From contig NZ_CP097463.1 of assembly GCF_027247405.1 (NCBI RefSeq), positions 1,984,001 to 2,048,000 of the forward strand: DNA of 64,000 bases, written 5' to 3'. Below the pieces are notes generated by a model. The model ran no database searches and had not been told where the DNA came from. It saw only the letters and a program-made list of their open reading frames with translations. Positions 7,990-58,004 of the stretch are shown here, one piece after another. Positions within the stretch are counted from its first letter, which is position 1, and every line of letters starts with the position of its first letter. The position numbers were made by a program, and so were the translations under genes. Source of the stretch: Jatrophihabitans cynanchi (GTDB taxonomy: Bacteria > Actinomycetota > Actinomycetes > Mycobacteriales > Jatrophihabitantaceae).

Positions 7990-9468
7990 TCAGAAGTCGG
8001 TCGCTACGTATACGGTCTCGAGATACTCGTCGATGCCTTCGTAACCGCCCTCGCGGCCGAGCCCGGACTGCTTGACGCCGCCAAACGGCGCTGCGGCGTC
8101 GGACAGCACGCCCCGGTTCAGGCCGACCATTCCCACCTCAAGCCGCTCGCAGGCCGCTAGCCCTCGACTGAGCGAACGTGAGTACACGTAGGCCGCCAAG
8201 CCCATCTCGGTGGCGTTGGCGAGGGCGATCGCGTCGTCATCGTCGTGCACGGCGATGACCGGTGCGACCGGACCGAAGATCTCCTCGATCGCGACGGCGC
8301 TGTCGCGCGGCACGTCGGTCAGCACCGTCGGCGGATAGAAGAAGCCGGCGCCGGCGGGAGTGCGGCCTCCCAACAGGGCCGAGGCACCGGCACTGATGGA
8401 GCGATCCACCTTGTCGGCGATGCCGGTGACGGCGCGGGCATTGATCATCGGGCCGATCTGCGTTTCTGCCGTCGTTGCGGGACCCATGCGCAGTCCGGCC
8501 ATCGCTGTGGCCAGCTTCGTAGCGAATTCGCCAGCGAGTGATTCGTGCACCAAGAAGCGATTCGCGGCGGTGCATGCCTGGCCGCCGTTGCGGATCTTCG
8601 CCAGCATCGCTCCCGCGACAGCCTGATCGACATCAGCGTCGGCAAGCACCAGGAACGGGTCGTTGCCGCCAAGTTCCATGGAACAGTTGACGATCCGGTC
8701 CGCCGCCTGTTTCAACAGAAGCGATCCGACGCTGGTCGAGCCGGTGAAGGAGAGCTTGCGGATCCGCGGGTCGGCGAGTGCTGTTGCAACAAGCGCGGCG
8801 GGACGGTCGGTGGTGACGACGTTCAGCACGCCTGCCGGCACGCCGGCCTCCTCGAGCAGGCCGGCCAGCGCCAGAGCCGTCAGTGGGGTGTCCTCGGCGG
8901 GCTTGAGGACGACCGCGCAACCTGCCGCGAGGGCGGGCGCGACCTTCCGGGTGATCATCGCGGCCGGGAAGTTCCACGGCGTCAACAGCAGTGCGACGCC
9001 GACCGGCTTGCGCCAGGTCAGGATCTTGTTGGTGCCCGCCGGGGCGGTCCGATACGTCCCGTCCGCACGCACAGCTTCCTCGGAGAACCAGCGAAGGAAC
9101 TCGGCCGCGTAAGTCGCTTCACCGCGCGCTTCCGTCAGAGGTTTGCCCATCTCGAGCGACATCAGGAATGCCAGTTCGTCCGCGCTGGCTGTCACGAGTT
9201 CGAATCCCCGTCGAAGGATCTCGGCGCGTTCGCGCGGCGCTGTGGCGGCCCAGACCGGCTGTGCGGCCGCGGCTGCACAGATCGCATGTTGGGCATCCGC
9301 CACGCCGGCCCGTGGCACATGCGCGATGACTGTCCCGATGGACGGGTCTAGGACGTCGAATGTGCCGTCGGCGCCGTCTACCCAGCCTCCGGCGATGTAC
9401 ATCTGTGCCGGCACTATCGAGCCGTTCCGCGCCGCGACATCGGCGAGCAGACTGCGCATGAGTGTCAC
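7990..9468 (-). CDS. gabD: NAD(P)-dependent succinate-semialdehyde dehydrogenase-like aldehyde dehydrogenase
   Basis: This 492-residue aldehyde dehydrogenase resembles GabD. It oxidises aldehydes, in the family typically succinate semialdehyde to succinate. The full catalytic set is visible: PWNF with N166, cofactor lysine K189 in LKPAED, the base E265 in MELGG and the nucleophile C299 in GGQACTAANR. It is the last gene of a minus-strand run (permease, ATPase, binding protein, MFS, this gene) and overlaps the MFS stop by GTGA. A start at ATG 9459 is an alternative, since AGAGGAG lies between the two options. In this context it could finish breakdown of a GABA-type compound. The exact substrate is inferred from similarity only. 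Confidence 0.85.
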   Translation of the reverse strand: MTLMRSLLADVAARNGSIVPAQMYIAGGWVDGADGTFDVLDPSIGTVIAHVPRAGVADAQHAICAAAAAQPVWAATAPRERAEILRRGFELVTASADELAFLMSLEMGKPLTEARGEATYAAEFLRWFSEEAVRADGTYRTAPAGTNKILTWRKPVGVALLLTPWNFPAAMITRKVAPALAAGCAVVLKPAEDTPLTALALAGLLEEAGVPAGVLNVVTTDRPAALVATALADPRIRKLSFTGSTSVGSLLLKQAADRIVNCSMELGGNDPFLVLADADVDQAVAGAMLAKIRNGGQACTAANRFLVHESLAGEFATKLATAMAGLRMGPATTAETQIGPMINARAVTGIADKVDRSISAGASALLGGRTPAGAGFFYPPTVLTDVPRDSAVAIEEIFGPVAPVIAVHDDDDAIALANATEMGLAAYVYSRSLSRGLAACERLEVGMVGLNRGVLSDAAAPFGGVKQSGLGREGGYEGIDEYLETVYVATDF

Positions 9469-50271: not shown

Positions 50272-50748
50272 GTGAGCACCCACGCGGCCCCGCCACAGGC
50301 GCGTCGAGCCCGGGTCCCGCACGCGCTCGTCGCGGCGCCAGGGGCCGCCGGCCTCGTGCTGGTCGTGATCGGCACCTTCTTGCCCTGGCTTCGGTCCGGA
50401 CGCCGGCTGCGCAACAGCTACGAGACGGACGGGGCGATCCGCCGCCTGCTCGAGCCGGAGGGCATCGCCCACACCGCGCTGTCGGTGTGGCCGGTGGTCA
50501 GCTTGGCCTGCGCCGTCGCCATCGCGCTGTACGTGTTCGGCCTGCGCGTGCCGGCCATCGTGCTGGCCCTGTTGATCGCGCTGACCGCGGGAGCGGTCGC
50601 CGTCGGTGCGCTGTCGGCGCCCACCATCCACTCGGTTGCGGTGGCCGCTACCGGACCGGTGACCACTTTGTGCGGGGTCGCGTTGATCTTGGCGGCGGTT
50701 AGCATTCGCTTCATCAGTTTCGTTCGCGACGACCGGAGATACCGATGA
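50272..50748 (+). CDS. Small membrane protein with four hydrophobic segments
   Basis: This 158-residue protein has hydrophobic segments at about residues 18-40, 67-92, 94-114 and 120-146, with charged loops [18 protein letters not shown] and a basic C-terminus. It resembles unnamed actinobacterial membrane proteins encoded before proline-rich DUF proteins. GTG 50272 starts 13 bases after the GNAT stop, and the 3' end overlaps the next gene by four bases (ATGA), so the two membrane proteins are translationally coupled. Confidence 0.7.
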
Positions 50749-52241
50749 CGCAGCCGCCCTACCCGCCGCAGCAGCCTTGGGGGCAGCCGGCGCCCGGCCC
50801 GAACGACCCGGCCGGAGCGGGGCCGCGCAACCAGCCCTCACCGCCACAGCAACCCCAGTACGGGCAACCGCAGTACGGGCAACCGCAGTACGGGCAACCG
50901 CAGTACGGGCAACCGCAGTACGGGCAACCGCAGTACGGGCAACCGCAGTACGGGCAACCGCAGTACGGGCAACCGCAGCAGCAGTACGGCTCGGCTCCGG
51001 AGTACCCGCAGCCGGCCCCGGCGAAGCCGAAGGGGCGCGGCAAGCTGATCGCCGGGGTCGCGGCGCTCGTGGTGCTCGCCGGCGGCGGCGTCGCCACCTA
51101 CGCGGCGTTCTCCGACAGCAGCGACAACCAGGCCGGGGCGTCCAGCCCGAAGGCGGCGGTGCAGAAACTGGTCGCCGACCTGAACAACGCCGACCTGCTC
51201 GGCGTGCTCGATGACCTCGCACCGGCCGAGAAGCGGGCGCTGGCCGATCCGATCCGCGAGGACATCAGCACGCTCAAGCGGCTGCACGTGCTCAGCACGA
51301 GCGCCGACCCGAACAAGGTGTCCGCGGTGCAGTTCCAGGCCAGCGGGGTGAGCTACGCAGCCAAGACGATCACGGTCAACGAGAGCGTACAGGTCGTCAC
51401 GGTCACCGGTGGCACGCTGCGGGTCAGCGCGGACGCGGCCAAGATCCCGCTGACGAGCCAGTTCCTGCACGCCGCGTTCCCGGGGGGTGCTCCGTCCGGC
51501 ACCAGCACCGCCACCACCGACCTCGCCACCCTCGCCGAACACGGTGGCCGGCCGCTGCAGGTCGCCGTGCAGAAGGTCGACGGGCGGTGGTACCCGAGCC
51601 TGTTCTACACGATCGCGCAGAACGCGGCCGCTGCCGCGCACGCCGGAGCACCGACGCCGTCCGACCGCATCGCCGCGGCAGGTGCCGCCACGCCGGACGA
51701 CGCGGTCAAGGGCCTGCTGCTCGCTGCGACAAAGGGCGACTGGCGCCGCGTGATCGAGCTGACCTCACCCACCGAGATGGCCGTGCTGCACGACTACGGC
51801 TCGCTGGTGCTGCAGAACGCACCGAGTTCCGGTACCGCCGGCTTCACGATCGACGAGGTCCGCTTCGCCAGCAAGGACATCTCCGGCGGCAAGCGACTGA
51901 CCGCGACGTCGATGGCCGGGCAGGCCGGCGGCCGGCAGTTCAGCGTGACGATGGACGGCGATTGCTACCAGGTCAGCATCGCCGGCGATCAGCGCAAGCT
52001 GTGCGGCAGCGACTTGATCGGGCAGATCGCCGCCGCCGCGGGCCGCGGGAACCTCACCGAAGCACAGCGCACCGCGCTCACCCACCTGATGCACGGGGTG
52101 ACCCAGTTCGGCATGGACGTGAGCCAGAGCGACGGCAAGTGGTACGTCGACCCGGTGCGGACCGTGGCGGACGAGTTCGGGACCGCGCTGGCCAGCCTGC
52201 AGGGCAACGACGTCCTCGAGCTGATCACGCTGTTCCGCTGA
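50745..52241 (+). CDS. Single-pass membrane protein with a Pro/Gln/Tyr repeat head and a large extracytoplasmic domain
   Basis: This 498-residue protein has a cytoplasmic head rich in P, Q, G and Y, including eight identical YGQPQ units. One membrane segment follows near residues 100-120 ([22 protein letters not shown]), then an extracytoplasmic part with two similar halves, each beginning with a helical segment ([52 protein letters not shown]). This looks like a duplicated lipoprotein-like fold seen in actinobacterial membrane proteins of unknown function. The Tyr/Gln-rich head suggests protein-protein contact. Function unknown. Confidence 0.75.
50856..50975 (+). repeat. Eight perfect 15-bp tandem repeats in coding sequence
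   Basis: CAGTACGGGCAACCG is repeated eight times without a single change, coding QYGQP each time. Perfect identity at synonymous sites points to recent expansion or ongoing slippage. Unit length is a multiple of three, so copy changes keep the frame. Confidence 0.97.
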
Positions 52242-54611: not shown

Positions 54612-55907
54612 TCAGCCGGTCAGCAGCGCTGGGTCGACCCGCCCGGTCGCCAGCAGCGGCTCCAGCTGCGCGGCGGGCGCCGGCGCGGCCAGGTAGCGGC
54701 CCTGAGCGCGCCAGCAGCCCAGCTCGAGCAGCGCGGCGACGGTCTCGCGATTCTCGACACCCTCAGCCACCAGATCCAGCTGCCAGATCCGGGTGAAGCC
54801 CACCAGCATGCTCACGATGACCGGATCGACCGCGTTGCCGGGCAGGTCCGCGACGAATTCGCGGTCGATCTTGAGGACGTCGATCGGCATCACCTTGAAG
54901 CGGCGCAGCGAACTGTAGCCCGCGCCGAAGTCGTCCAGCGCGATCAAGGCACCGAGTTGCCGGATCCGGTCCAGGTTCGCCACCACCGCCTGCGGGTCCG
55001 GCGCGGCGAGCACTTCGGTGACCTCGAGGCAGAGCAGTTCGGCCGGCAGCCCGGATTCGGCCAGCACGGCGGTGACCTGGTCGATGATCGCCGGATCGGT
55101 GAGGTCCGGCGGTGAGACGTTCACCCGGATGACGAACCGCTGCTCCGGGTACGCCGCCAGCCACGCCGCGCGTTGCGCGCAGGCCGTGCGCAGCGCCCAC
55201 TGGCCCAGCTCGCGGGTTGCGCCGGTGCGTTCGGCCACGCTGATGAACTCAGCCGCGCCGACCAGGCCGAGGGTGGGGTGCTGCCAGCGCATCAGCGCCT
55301 CGACGGCGAGGATCGCCCCGGTGCGCAGGTCCACCTCGGGCTGGTAGTGCAGCACCAGCTCGCCGCCTGACACCGCCGCGCGCAGGTGCAGCTCGATCTG
55401 GGCCAGCGCCATCGCGTCCTGGTGCAGTTGCGGGGTGTAGCCGATCGCGACGTCCCCCGGCAACCTCCGTGCCTGCCCGAACGCGTCGTCGGCGCGGTGG
55501 ACGAGCTCCGCGACGCTCGCATCCTGCAGGCGGGAGTGGGCGTAACCGACGCTGACGTGCCGTGTCACGGTGCCCCCGTCGAGCGCGACAGGCTGCGACA
55601 GCCGCACCCGCAGCAACTCCGCCGCGGCGGCCGCAGCGGGTTCGCCGTCCAATCCGGGCACGATCGCGCCGAACGTGCCCAGCCCCAGATCGACCACGTA
55701 CGCGCCGGCGCCGGCCCAGTCGCGGACCCGCCGTTCGAGTTCGTCCAGCAGCTGATCGCCGGCGCGGTAGCCCAGCGCGTCATTCACGGCCTTGAGCCGA
55801 TCGACGTCGACGACGAACGCGCCGACCTGCTCCTCGGGGGACAGGTCGGGCAGCCTCGCCCGGGCCTCGAGCAGGGCCTGCCAGGGCCGCACGTTCGGAT
55901 CAGTCAT
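54612..55907 (-). CDS. Cyclic-di-GMP phosphodiesterase (EAL) with degenerate GGDEF domain
   Basis: This 431-residue cytoplasmic protein has a GGDEF-like domain at about 25-160, whose active-site loop reads GLGTF (75-79) instead of GGDEF, so it should not make cyclic di-GMP. The EAL domain (about 170-420) keeps E203-A-L, NVSP, the Glu of LEVTE, DDFGAGYSSL, LKIDREFV and AEGVEN, so hydrolysis of cyclic di-GMP is expected. The usual QGY/F motif near the end has one inserted residue (QGRYLA). ATG 55907 has AGGAGA about five bases upstream. It lies downstream, on the same strand, of three micro-ORFs and is back to back with a GGDEF cyclase gene. Confidence 0.9.
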   Translation of the reverse strand: MTDPNVRPWQALLEARARLPDLSPEEQVGAFVVDVDRLKAVNDALGYRAGDQLLDELERRVRDWAGAGAYVVDLGLGTFGAIVPGLDGEPAAAAAAELLRVRLSQPVALDGGTVTRHVSVGYAHSRLQDASVAELVHRADDAFGQARRLPGDVAIGYTPQLHQDAMALAQIELHLRAAVSGGELVLHYQPEVDLRTGAILAVEALMRWQHPTLGLVGAAEFISVAERTGATRELGQWALRTACAQRAAWLAAYPEQRFVIRVNVSPPDLTDPAIIDQVTAVLAESGLPAELLCLEVTEVLAAPDPQAVVANLDRIRQLGALIALDDFGAGYSSLRRFKVMPIDVLKIDREFVADLPGNAVDPVIVSMLVGFTRIWQLDLVAEGVENRETVAALLELGCWRAQGRYLAAPAPAAQLEPLLATGRVDPALLTG

Positions 55908-56317
55908 CAGTTCTCCTGACCTTCGACCGCGCCGCACACCCAAGGTCCGATCGCGAGGCGCGAGACCGCCCGCCAGCATCGCACGTGGCCCTGTGCGGCC
56001 GGCAGGCGCACGCTCTGCTCGGCCGCGATTGCCCGTTCGGCTCGCGAAATCCTCTCGGGGCGGGCGCGCCGCCGGGACACAGGCGACGATGCGGTGTTGC
56101 CAGGACCGGCGCCCCGGCATCGGGTTCGCTAAACATCAGGTCGGCGGCCGGAACCGCCGACAGTCACCACATCGTGCAGCTGCGCCCTCGTCGGCGCCGC
56201 TCGGCAGCCACCTGCCACCGTCCCGGCGCGTTCACGCGGACCGTGCTTCGGTGCGGGCGCCCGGGTGGCGACGACTAGACCGGAAGTCGCCGACGCGTCG
56301 ATACGTCCGCAGTTGTC
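55908..56317. other. 410-base stretch between the micro-ORFs and the EAL gene
   Basis: No family-like ORF on either strand. It could be the long leader of the EAL transcript if the micro-ORFs and EAL gene are co-transcribed. The sequence is GC-rich with several short inverted repeats but no clear riboswitch architecture that I recognise. Confidence 0.4.
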
Positions 56318-56344
56318 TCACTTGCCCCAGCCCCAGTTGCTCAT
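56318..56344 (-). CDS. Micro-ORF A: octapeptide MSNWGWGK
   Basis: This 27-base ORF (ATG AGC AAC TGG GGC TGG GGC AAG TGA) is preceded by AAGGAGGTGA (56360-56351), ten bases complementary to the 16S rRNA 3' end, ending six bases before the ATG. It is the copy nearest to the EAL gene. The same ORF and ribosome-binding site occur in copies B and C. Short length precludes homology-based assignment; the repeated pairing of ideal SD and identical peptide is the evidence that it is translated. Confidence 0.65.
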   Translation of the reverse strand: MSNWGWGK

Positions 56345-56392
56345 TTGCGGTCACCTCCTTCGTCGCTTCATTCCTCACGGTCCAAGATCAAT

Positions 56393-56419
56393 TCACTTGC
56401 CCCAGCCCCAGTTGCTCAT
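56393..56419 (-). CDS. Micro-ORF B: octapeptide MSNWGWGK
   Basis: This copy is identical to micro-ORF A through the SD (56435-56426), spacer and coding part, while the flanking bases differ. It lies 75 bases upstream of copy A on the minus strand. The spacers between copies share a weak GGAATG-AAGCGA core, so the set seems to come from duplication of a unit of about 77 bases, of which only the SD-ORF part has been kept. Confidence 0.65.
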   Translation of the reverse strand: MSNWGWGK

Positions 56420-56471
56420 TTGCGGTCACCTCCTTTTCGAATTCGCATTCGCTCATCGCTTTACATTCCTT

Positions 56472-56498
56472 TCACTTTCCCCAGCCCCAGTTGCTCAA
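56472..56498 (-). CDS. Micro-ORF C: octapeptide MSNWGWGK from a TTG start
   Basis: TTG AGC AAC TGG GGC TGG GGA AAG TGA, with AAGGAGGTGA at 56513-56504. It differs from A and B by the start codon and a synonymous Gly codon, so the peptide is unchanged although the DNA has drifted. An in-frame GTG three codons upstream overlaps the SD and is unlikely. It is the first of the three on the minus strand and follows the hairpin at 56575-56605. Confidence 0.6.
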   Translation of the reverse strand: MSNWGWGK

Positions 56499-56574
56499 GT
56501 CGCTCACCTCCTTGCCGATAGCACCGATCAGGCGGGCCCGGCCGCAGCCTATGGGCTGGCGGCGCGCTCGCCAA

Positions 56575-56605
56575 GAGGCTGTGCCCCTAAGCTGGGCACA
56601 GCCTC
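56575..56605. promoter_or_regulatory. Perfect 12-bp hairpin upstream of the micro-ORFs
   Basis: GAGGCTGTGCCC (56575-56586) pairs with GGGCACAGCCTC (56594-56605) around a seven-base loop. On the minus strand it is 60 bases before the SD of micro-ORF C; on the plus strand it is about 100 bases before the GGDEF gene. It could be an attenuator or terminator element or a protein-binding palindrome shared by the divergent units. Confidence 0.55.
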
Positions 56606-56702: not shown

Positions 56703-58004
56703 ATGCACACCGAGGAATCGCAGCCGCGCCCGCTGGGTGCTGCGTTTTGCGATGTCCCGGTGCGGCTGCGTGCGCTTATTCTGTGCGTCGACGCCGGAGC
56801 GATCGCACTGGCCGCTGTGATGGTCGCCAGGGATCATCCGACCGCCGTGACGTGGCGCTACGCGACAGTCCTGCTCGTCCTGGCGGTCCTGTTCGAGGAG
56901 ACGTCGCGGCGCATCGGACGGATGCGCTTGCTGGTCGGCGGCGACGGCGCGCTGCAAGACATGACGTCGGTGTGGACGTTCGCCGGGGCGCTGATCCTGC
57001 CGGCGGGCTACGCGGCGCTCTTTGCTGCGGTGATCGCCGTGCATGCGTGGTTACGACAACAGCGGGACGTCGGCCAACTCTTGTACCGCCGTATCTACAC
57101 GGCAGCCACCGTCATGCTCGCTTGCATGGCTGCAGGCCCACTGGTCGCGGTGGACCTGCAGTGGGACACCGGCCTCCTGTCGCTGGCCTCACTCCTCAGG
57201 GTCCTTGGAGCCCTACTCATCTACACGGCGGTCAACCGGCTGCTGATCTCGGCCGCGATCGTGTTGACCGGCGCCCCGCCCTCGGCGCGGGCGCTGATCG
57301 GCACCTGGGACGACAACGGGCTGGAGTTCGCCACGCTCTGCCTCGGTTTCATGACCGCGGTTGTGGTGGTCGGGCAACCGCTGCTCGGCGTGATCGTGTT
57401 GCTGCCCGTCGTGCTCCTTCAGCGCGCGGCGCTGGTCAAGCAGTTGGAGACCGCAGCGTCGACCGACGCCAAGACCCAGCTGCTCAACCCGCTCGCCTGG
57501 CGCCAGCGCGCGCAGCGCGAACTGGAGTTGTCGCGCGTGGGTCACATCGCCTTGCTCGTGCTCGACCTGGACTCCTTCAAGGCCGTGAACGACCTGCACG
57601 GGCACCTGGTCGGCGACGCCGCGCTGCTGGCCACCAGCGTGCGGATCACCGGCGAGCTGCGCACCGGGGACATCGTCGGGCGCTTCGGCGGCGAGGAGTT
57701 CGTCGTCCTGCTGCCCGGGCTGAACGCCGAGGGTGCGATGGCTGTAGCCGACCGTCTGCGGCTGCGCATCGGCGGCGTCCGGCTGTGCGACCTCGGCGCC
57801 ACCCACCAGGACGACTCGCCCTGCGAGCACACCCTGTCGACGTCCATCGGAGTCGCGGTCTTCCCGGACAACGGCGCGGGGTTGACCGCACTGCTGGCGG
57901 AGGCGGACAAGGCGCTGTACGCCGCGAAGGACGCCGGCCGCAACACCGTGGTGCTGGCCGAACCGAGGCCGTCGAGCGCCTCCGGCGAGGAACGCGTCGG
58001 ATAG
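56703..58004 (+). CDS. Membrane-bound diguanylate cyclase (GGDEF)
   Basis: This 433-residue protein has an N-terminal membrane region with about six hydrophobic segments (residues 24-235) and a C-terminal GGDEF domain (about 250-420). The active-site loop GGEEF is intact at 329-333 and the inhibitory I-site RTGD (320-323) lies five residues before it, so feedback-controlled synthesis of cyclic di-GMP is expected. DLDSFKAVNDLHGH provides the metal-binding Asp. ATG 56703 is used. It is divergent from the micro-ORFs and the EAL gene, so synthesis and breakdown genes sit back to back. Confidence 0.92.
   Translation: MHTEESQPRPLGAAFCDVPVRLRALILCVDAGAIALAAVMVARDHPTAVTWRYATVLLVLAVLFEETSRRIGRMRLLVGGDGALQDMTSVWTFAGALILPAGYAALFAAVIAVHAWLRQQRDVGQLLYRRIYTAATVMLACMAAGPLVAVDLQWDTGLLSLASLLRVLGALLIYTAVNRLLISAAIVLTGAPPSARALIGTWDDNGLEFATLCLGFMTAVVVVGQPLLGVIVLLPVVLLQRAALVKQLETAASTDAKTQLLNPLAWRQRAQRELELSRVGHIALLVLDLDSFKAVNDLHGHLVGDAALLATSVRITGELRTGDIVGRFGGEEFVVLLPGLNAEGAMAVADRLRLRIGGVRLCDLGATHQDDSPCEHTLSTSIGVAVFPDNGAGLTALLAEADKALYAAKDAGRNTVVLAEPRPSSASGEERVG

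Follow-up and report, generated by a model that had tools for sequence, protein, structure and literature searches.

The micro-ORF array and its surroundings

The window, a 64-kb stretch of the Jatrophihabitans cynanchi genome, carries three tandem micro-ORFs on its minus strand, head to head with a gene for a predicted membrane-bound diguanylate cyclase. The features of this region are as follows:

54612..55907, minus strand: GGDEF-EAL gene next to the array, codirectional with it and downstream; not a constant part of the cassette
56140..56161, minus strand: terminator-like hairpin with a T-rich tail, separating the array from the EAL gene
56318..56344, minus strand: micro-ORF copy A, MSNWGWGK*, ATG start
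56351..56360, minus strand: Shine-Dalgarno (SD) sequence of copy A, AAGGAGGTGA
56393..56419, minus strand: micro-ORF copy B, MSNWGWGK*, ATG start
56426..56435, minus strand: SD of copy B, AAGGAGGTGA
56472..56498, minus strand: micro-ORF copy C, (L/M)SNWGWGK*, TTG start
56504..56513, minus strand: SD of copy C, AAGGAGGTGA
56575-56605: perfect 12-bp hairpin, GAGGCTGTGCCC/GGGCACAGCCTC, in the gap that separates copy C from the start of the GGDEF gene
56703..58004, plus strand: conserved partner gene, divergent from the array, for a 433-aa protein with a predicted membrane sensor and a GGDEF diguanylate cyclase domain

The original prediction had described three minus-strand micro-ORFs for one octapeptide, each with its own SD and spaced 75-79 bases apart, with copies A and B the same from SD to stop and copy C set off by a TTG start and a synonymous GGA codon, and this description was confirmed. 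Each copy has 8 sense codons and a TGA stop, the 43 nt of copies A and B are identical, copy C differs by TTG for ATG, GGA for GGC and an SD-to-start gap that is 1 nt shorter, and the start-to-start distances are 75 and 79 nt; the number of chance matches expected for a 43-nt pattern fitting A and B was 0.00 (100 shuffles). The array at 56318-56513 was also the sole call in the window by a detector whose criteria are at least two ORFs, each of 4-14 codons and behind an SD, that share 60% or more of their residues at 35-160 nt spacing; it does not demand Trp, and it reported 0 arrays in 1.9 million strand-bases of mononucleotide shuffles. A pattern of NWGWGK followed by a stop occurs 3 times in J. 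cynanchi, and none of 100 other genomes has it; a looser pattern of an SD plus WGWGK returned 0 stretches in a search of genome contigs. The micro-ORFs are thus confirmed as real, and their exact peptide is found, among the genomes searched, in J. cynanchi only.

Terminator-like sites number 2 on both strands of the region vs 0.7 expected in shuffles, and the hairpin at 56140..56161 is the probable end of the array transcript. The 101-nt stretch around the hairpin at 56575-56605 folds at z -5.5 relative to shuffles; the hairpin has no T tail. A search of the array region for sigma-70-type promoters gave no match, and an Rfam scan reported a tRNA only. Elsewhere in the window, a plus-strand ORF of 498 aa (50745-52241) carries a run of YGQPQ repeats at its N-terminus.

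The GGDEF domain of the window partner scores 113 bits and is the only domain that Pfam assigns to the protein, and the GGEEF motif is intact in 18 of 18 aligned partners. The N-terminal domain is helical in the AlphaFold model (mean pLDDT 86) and weakly MASE9-like (3 of 11 members, best E 4e-4). A sequence search of the PDB returned no relative of this sensor domain at E up to 1, and the 50 Foldseek matches listed for the partner were GGDEF-containing structures. With an intact active-site motif and a modelled multi-helix N-terminal domain, the partner has the properties predicted for a membrane-sensor diguanylate cyclase.

Related arrays in other actinobacteria

Exact-peptide searches, which gave nothing outside the genome of origin, would have suggested a lineage-specific oddity, a reading that was given up since searches with the partner genes as bait revealed relatives. 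Two neighbouring genes served as bait in 24 genomes of the family, and the flanks of their matches were scanned for SD-preceded micro-ORFs. This family scan disclosed micro-ORFs with Trp codons, frequently as tandem copies, that point away from GGDEF homologues; among the peptides are MNNWTW, MQGWSF, VNNHGW, MLDNWRWP, VNNNQWF, MTVVNWS (with a period of 71 nt) and VNVWDW. Of 20 larger loci, which were picked after arrays were already visible in some, 15 gave arrays with the detector; its lone Trp-less call in these 20 sits opposite one array, on the other strand. The conservation check set beforehand therefore divides, being negative for the letters of the peptide (0/100 other genomes) and positive for the arrangement, which recurs as arrays in relatives. 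A pattern of three AAGGAG motifs was discarded as too loose: it matched 11 of 61 genomes and its control 17, and arrays were recognised only in J. cynanchi and G014. The same pattern caught a CRISPR-like array (G005:C112 158-603, L075) with repeats around AAGGAGAGGGCCTCATTGCGGC.

The J. cynanchi genome itself holds three GGDEF-linked micro-ORF loci, namely the window array, a second cassette (L088) with HVEWS twice and an MFS gene, and a third GGDEF paralogue (L089) with the single micro-ORF MQHWNWG. Single Trp micro-ORFs occur in other genomes as well: MRLHTEWL in G001, at a locus without a detected array, and the seven-residue MNKAWES in G002 (L106), on the divergent strand and some 130-190 nt upstream of GGDEF. 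A 13-bp GC-rich hairpin closely follows the MNKAWES ORF, and this locus looks like a complete one-peptide mini-gene.

A profile of the sensor domain (A2) yielded 60 loci in named genomes, some of them the same records as G-numbered genome loci, and the detector found arrays in 25 of the 60. In Pseudonocardia there are 21 copies in P. dioxanivorans CB1190 ((M/V)RNKSW), 21 in Pseudonocardia sp. N23 and 14 in P. pini (RNRAW); P. acaciae has an RNRHW array, and Actinophytocola, Labedaea and Amycolatopsis arida have Trp-less peptides of the RSRDN, RNRDN, RNRDS and SNRDN types. No array was detected at 21 of 22 Amycolatopsis loci and 10 of 10 Kutzneria loci. Among the 35 loci without a detected array, five hold micropeptide ORFs found by eye. 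The detector missed three NNHSW-type ORFs at L108 and also NQGW repeats contained in one ORF at L117, which is the same locus as L095 of G019; there, on the minus strand at 9127 and 9037, a short ORF, MQNQGWNQGW, is followed by a longer one with seven NQGW repeats, and tandem ORFs have apparently been fused into one repeat peptide. Three Kutzneria loci (L157 at 7015, L161 at 7501 and L152 at 7516, all on the plus strand) have a single 26-residue ORF between the GGDEF and MFS genes, which ends in two GRPTEWR- or GRPSEWR-type repeats and replaces the tandem ORFs.

At the level of the class, the sensor domain occurs in 28 of 148 genomes. From 40 matches listed outside J. cynanchi, 20 stretches were picked blind to arrays, and 14 of these loci, for which the GGDEF sensor domain was the sole bait, contain arrays, 12 of them with an MFS gene. 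The peptides include RDNTWT, RDTTWS (x13), RGNSWD, RANSWD, RDNHWTP and others, and the arrays stem from families f34 and f21. Because many GGDEF homologues lie at loci without a detected array (35/60 in the profile search and 6/20 at class level), the sensor domain has other uses besides partnership with an array. In the converse search, a tandem M[RSNH]NxxW peptide pattern alone matched 8 of 397 genomes of the order (control pattern, 0) and had no match in viral contigs; all 8 genomes have GGDEF and MFS homologues at the locus, the GGDEF gene lying about 3 kb off in G246. An array also resides on a plasmid, NZ_CP080522.1 of Pseudonocardia sp. DSM 110487, where four copies of MRNHNW (L218, 5263-5460, minus strand) adjoin the gene of GGDEF protein WP_255622856.1; no listed gene covers this array in the one annotated record, whose gene table may be incomplete.

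Purged of repeated records, and without the detector reports of repeats within the spacers (L206, L207) and of an alternative start (L209), the list comprises 53 arrays with 278 copies (2-22 per array) and 38 consensus peptides of 6-8 residues; the arrays are not all independent because some genomes are close relatives (L102/L103, L142/L166). Trp is present in 34 of the 38 peptides, at the C-terminal position or one of the two positions preceding it, and Asn in 32; four peptides lack Trp, and four end in RDN or RDS. An SD core precedes 268 of the 278 copies vs 11% of background windows, an excess that is partly by construction because the seeds required an SD. The six compared genomes with several cassettes (G000, G007, G015, G492, G512, G521) have a different peptide in each, and related cassettes of different genomes can share one, as do G452, G467, G512 and G435 for RDNTWT and G512 and G521 for RGNSWD.

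Selection on the encoded peptides

Copies were also recovered by nucleotide similarity without regard to reading frame, at a 25% mismatch limit and with each variant counted once per array, giving 210 copies in 38 arrays. The seed arrays had been chosen for amino-acid similarity, which favours a result of selection, though not for codon choice. Distinct codon changes comprise 50 synonymous and 36 non-synonymous ones, vs 17.6 synonymous expected if substitutions ignored the code, and Ser codons switch between AGY and TCN 10 times among copies. An ATG, GTG or TTG start is kept in 203 of the 210 copies and a stop in 204 (152 TGA, 27 TAG, 25 TAA). Pairwise identity is 0.93 in the ORFs, 0.48 in the 12 nt with the unaligned SD and 0.46 past the stop, as computed over 844 pairs that are dominated by long arrays. 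A more permissive count, with a 35% mismatch limit and every copy included (96 synonymous, 210 non-synonymous, 43.8 expected), was set aside, as it draws in chance matches.

SD sequences and spacings vary between copies as the ORF stays in frame, and residues besides Trp are also kept within arrays. By this comparative evidence, the amino acids of the micropeptides are shown to be under selection, with the peptide kept while the spacers scramble, and the suggestion in the original prediction that the peptide functions through its translation gains support from the copies in relatives. In 32 of 34 arrays, the RNA near the start codons is less folded than shuffled sequence (mean z +0.94), which is weak support for translation because the antisense control is also positive (29/34 arrays, mean z +0.67; paired p 0.04).

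Composition and gene order of the cassette

In a survey of the window and 20 loci of the family, with genes from a home-made caller, the recurrent neighbours were a GGDEF family in 7 genera and an MFS family in 6; the next families, the EAL family among them, reached 3 genera, and no third gene family went beyond that. An early hunch that the array is linked to GGDEF/EAL genes accordingly holds in part: the partner that stays constant is the membrane GGDEF gene on the divergent strand, whereas the EAL neighbour recurs in 3 genera only.

Across the full set, 39 of 53 arrays have an MFS gene in their cassette, and three gene orders occur. The MFS gene most often follows the array in convergent orientation (33/53), the position that the EAL gene occupies in the window; it lies beyond the GGDEF gene for 4 arrays (L102, L103, L142, L166) and downstream of the array in the same direction for 2 (L149, L221). 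The fetched cassette flank lacks an MFS gene for the other 14 arrays, of which L107, L116 and L204 are cut by contig ends and one is that of the window, where tblastn found no MFS homologue within 64 kb. Among the A2 loci, an MFS homologue is present at 17 of the 25 with an array, in the cassette at 15 and at another GGDEF gene at L146 and L159, and at 5 of the 35 without a detected array, all five of which hold micropeptide ORFs. The MFS proteins match the MFS_1 and MFS_3 models, and their matches to 2A0121, EntS and further efflux models fall below cutoff; a PDB sequence search at E up to 0.001 returned no relative.

Distances between GGDEF proteins correlate with those between MFS proteins (Spearman 0.66, 40 cassettes), and peptide distance correlates weakly with both (0.28 with GGDEF and 0.26 with MFS); all three values are at the floor of 300 permutations, and shared ancestry contributes to each. 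BldD boxes show no excess in 37 divergent regions, of which 3, 14 and 20 have their best box at 1, 2 and 3 mismatches vs 1.4, 13.7 and 20.7 in shuffles. The tandem micro-ORFs, their stand-alone position and their linkage to GGDEF and MFS genes are shown by these genomic comparisons, and the window is, as judged from gene content, a member of a previously unnoticed actinobacterial cassette family that combines a micropeptide array, a putative membrane diguanylate cyclase and usually an efflux-type MFS protein.

A proposed peptide-to-c-di-GMP channel and its alternatives

The best reading of the window array is that of a self-contained gene with several copies of one predicted leaderless octapeptide, (f)MSNWGWGK; that it is a leader of the EAL gene is unlikely, because the EAL neighbour is inconstant, a convergent MFS gene is usually found there, and a terminator-like hairpin lies in between. 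Translation in the cell, export, sensing, a c-di-GMP output and a role as signal are the inferred parts of the following model, to which we assign a probability of roughly 0.45. With its own ribosome-binding site for each copy, one transcript would give rise to many peptide molecules, and the array might multiply output beyond the repeated translation of a single short ORF. The MFS protein would export the peptide, for the window array perhaps the MFS protein of the sister cassette, and the GGDEF protein of the divergent gene would then detect it through its membrane domain and c-di-GMP would change; a peptide of its own would give each cassette a private channel. An exported signal read by the cyclase is proposed because the coupling to a divergent cyclase, the coupling to an efflux-type MFS gene and the private peptide of each cassette all fit it, and among the roles named in the original prediction that of a secreted signalling peptide is the best supported.

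Two other readings retain a peptide product. The ORFs may be minimal precursors of a modified, RiPP- or microcin-like peptide that is exported by the MFS protein and modified by an enzyme encoded elsewhere, the cyclase regulating its production or sensing the product. Tiny multi-copy precursor genes do exist in the biarylitides, as described in the main text of PMC13417212, the conserved Trp and Asn would suit a modification site, and three MFS proteins weakly match, below cutoff, a ryptide exporter model; we nevertheless consider this reading unlikely, given that no third gene family recurs in more than 3 genera of the compared loci and that a P450 heme signature occurs once in 131 sequences (the window and L088-L217), at the array-less L123. 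That the peptide acts inside the cell by binding directly to the diguanylate cyclase or the MFS protein, with no cell-to-cell role, strikes us as improbable. Such a ligand would have no need of a leader peptide or processing protease, GGDEF is the constant neighbour (most loci having been fetched by GGDEF), and MFS genes are missing beside 14 of 53 arrays, yet linkage to an efflux-type MFS gene survives three gene orders and up to 22 copies would suggest bulk production.

We see little prospect for a translation-level device acting on a neighbouring gene, be it a Trp attenuator leader, a ribosome-loading element or a set of tRNA-draining minigenes. The original prediction had entertained a leader sensing Trp-tRNA or loading ribosomes for the EAL gene, and strong SDs, Trp codons, the codirectional EAL gene downstream in the window and the codirectional MFS genes downstream in G187 and L149 would suit it; this idea founders on the opposite direction of the MFS gene after the array in 33 of 53 cases, on the restriction of the EAL neighbour to 3 genera and on the hairpin that separates it from the array, as well as on the conservation of non-Trp residues, the 4 of 38 peptides that lack Trp, and the fused repeat ORFs at three Kutzneria loci and in G019. 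Hardly credible is a DNA or RNA element with no peptide product, such as protein-binding repeats or a plus-strand anti-SD antisense RNA: three copies of TCACCTCCTT, which we take to resemble the 16S 3' end, do lie on the plus strand, and folding of the array RNA is weak on either strand, but the excess of synonymous codons, the kept starts, the three kinds of stop codon, the scrambled spacers, and SDs and spacings that vary as the ORF stays in frame all speak against it.

Returning to the exported signal, the cassette family suggests a new kind of peptide signalling system. At somewhat less than an even chance, it may represent an unrecognised form of actinobacterial cell-to-cell signalling, in which a dedicated MFS pump would export leaderless peptides of 6-8 residues, made from up to about 22 micro-genes, and a membrane diguanylate cyclase would read them out directly, with several insulated peptide-to-c-di-GMP channels per genome. 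The second messenger c-di-GMP governs development in actinomycetes. Should the peptides prove to be signals, a family of orphan membrane diguanylate cyclases would gain its natural ligands, and peptide signalling would be tied directly to c-di-GMP; this ligand hypothesis is testable at once because peptides of 6-8 residues are cheap to synthesise. The arrays also bring to light a class of genes below the size of ordinary gene finding, with up to about 22 per locus, and pose the question of why whole ORFs were multiplied instead of one being strengthened.

Comparison with known systems

Nothing comparable to these micro-ORF arrays was found among the titles and abstract openings listed in searches of open-licence PMC papers, which does not prove their absence in print. 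Trp attenuators and uORFs lie upstream of the gene they control and in the same direction; here the MFS gene is convergent for 33 of 53 arrays, and the EAL gene of the window is codirectional but behind a terminator-like hairpin. Of the micropeptide array-MFS-GGDEF cassette as defined above, the window has the divergent tandem micro-ORFs and lacks the MFS gene.

MccC is an MFS exporter, and systems of the microcin C type are defined by a C-terminal Asn and an adjacent MccB/ThiF-like enzyme. As described in the text of PMC6495379, microcin C is encoded by the seven-codon mccA, which has a terminator after it and gives a formyl-Met peptide whose C-terminus receives a nucleotide from a dedicated enzyme. 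According to the same text, ORFs of 2-8 codons can be translated repeatedly with no dissociation of the ribosome, as tested in vitro for the seven-codon mccA (PMC6495379). The arrays resemble this system in their very short peptide genes and efflux-type MFS gene, and in the four consensus peptides that end in RDN or RDS; they differ in their many copies, their GGDEF partner, the lack of a recurrent enzyme gene (no third gene beyond 3 genera) and the Trp that is last or at most two before the end in 34 of 38 peptides.

The biarylitides have an 18-bp precursor gene, bytA, with five-residue precursors and a P450, and up to six precursor copies with the motif MQWNY occur in Lysinibacillus, overlooked by automatic gene detection, according to the main text of PMC13417212, in which the terms GGDEF, diguanylate and transporter are absent. 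Both systems have peptide genes of the smallest size in multiple copies; biarylitides, unlike the arrays, are defined by the cross-linking P450, and a heme-signature scan of 131 sequences found none beside the arrays.

The gene of a leaderless communication peptide (LCP) adjoins that of its receptor, a cytosolic Rgg-type transcription factor, and is present in a single copy. In the LCP/RopB system of Firmicutes, a very short signal peptide is made with no leader sequence (PMC10518010), and the main text of that paper does not contain the terms tandem, copies, exporter, c-di-GMP or Actinobacteria. No Rgg- or RopB-type neighbour recurs beside the arrays, where only the GGDEF and MFS families are found in more than 3 genera and GGDEF is the only Pfam domain of the partner. 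The two systems share a mature-length peptide with no leader, encoded here by ORFs of 6-8 residues with their own SD and stop, and what sets the actinobacterial cassettes apart is their organisation in tandem arrays, their putative membrane diguanylate cyclase partner and their MFS gene.
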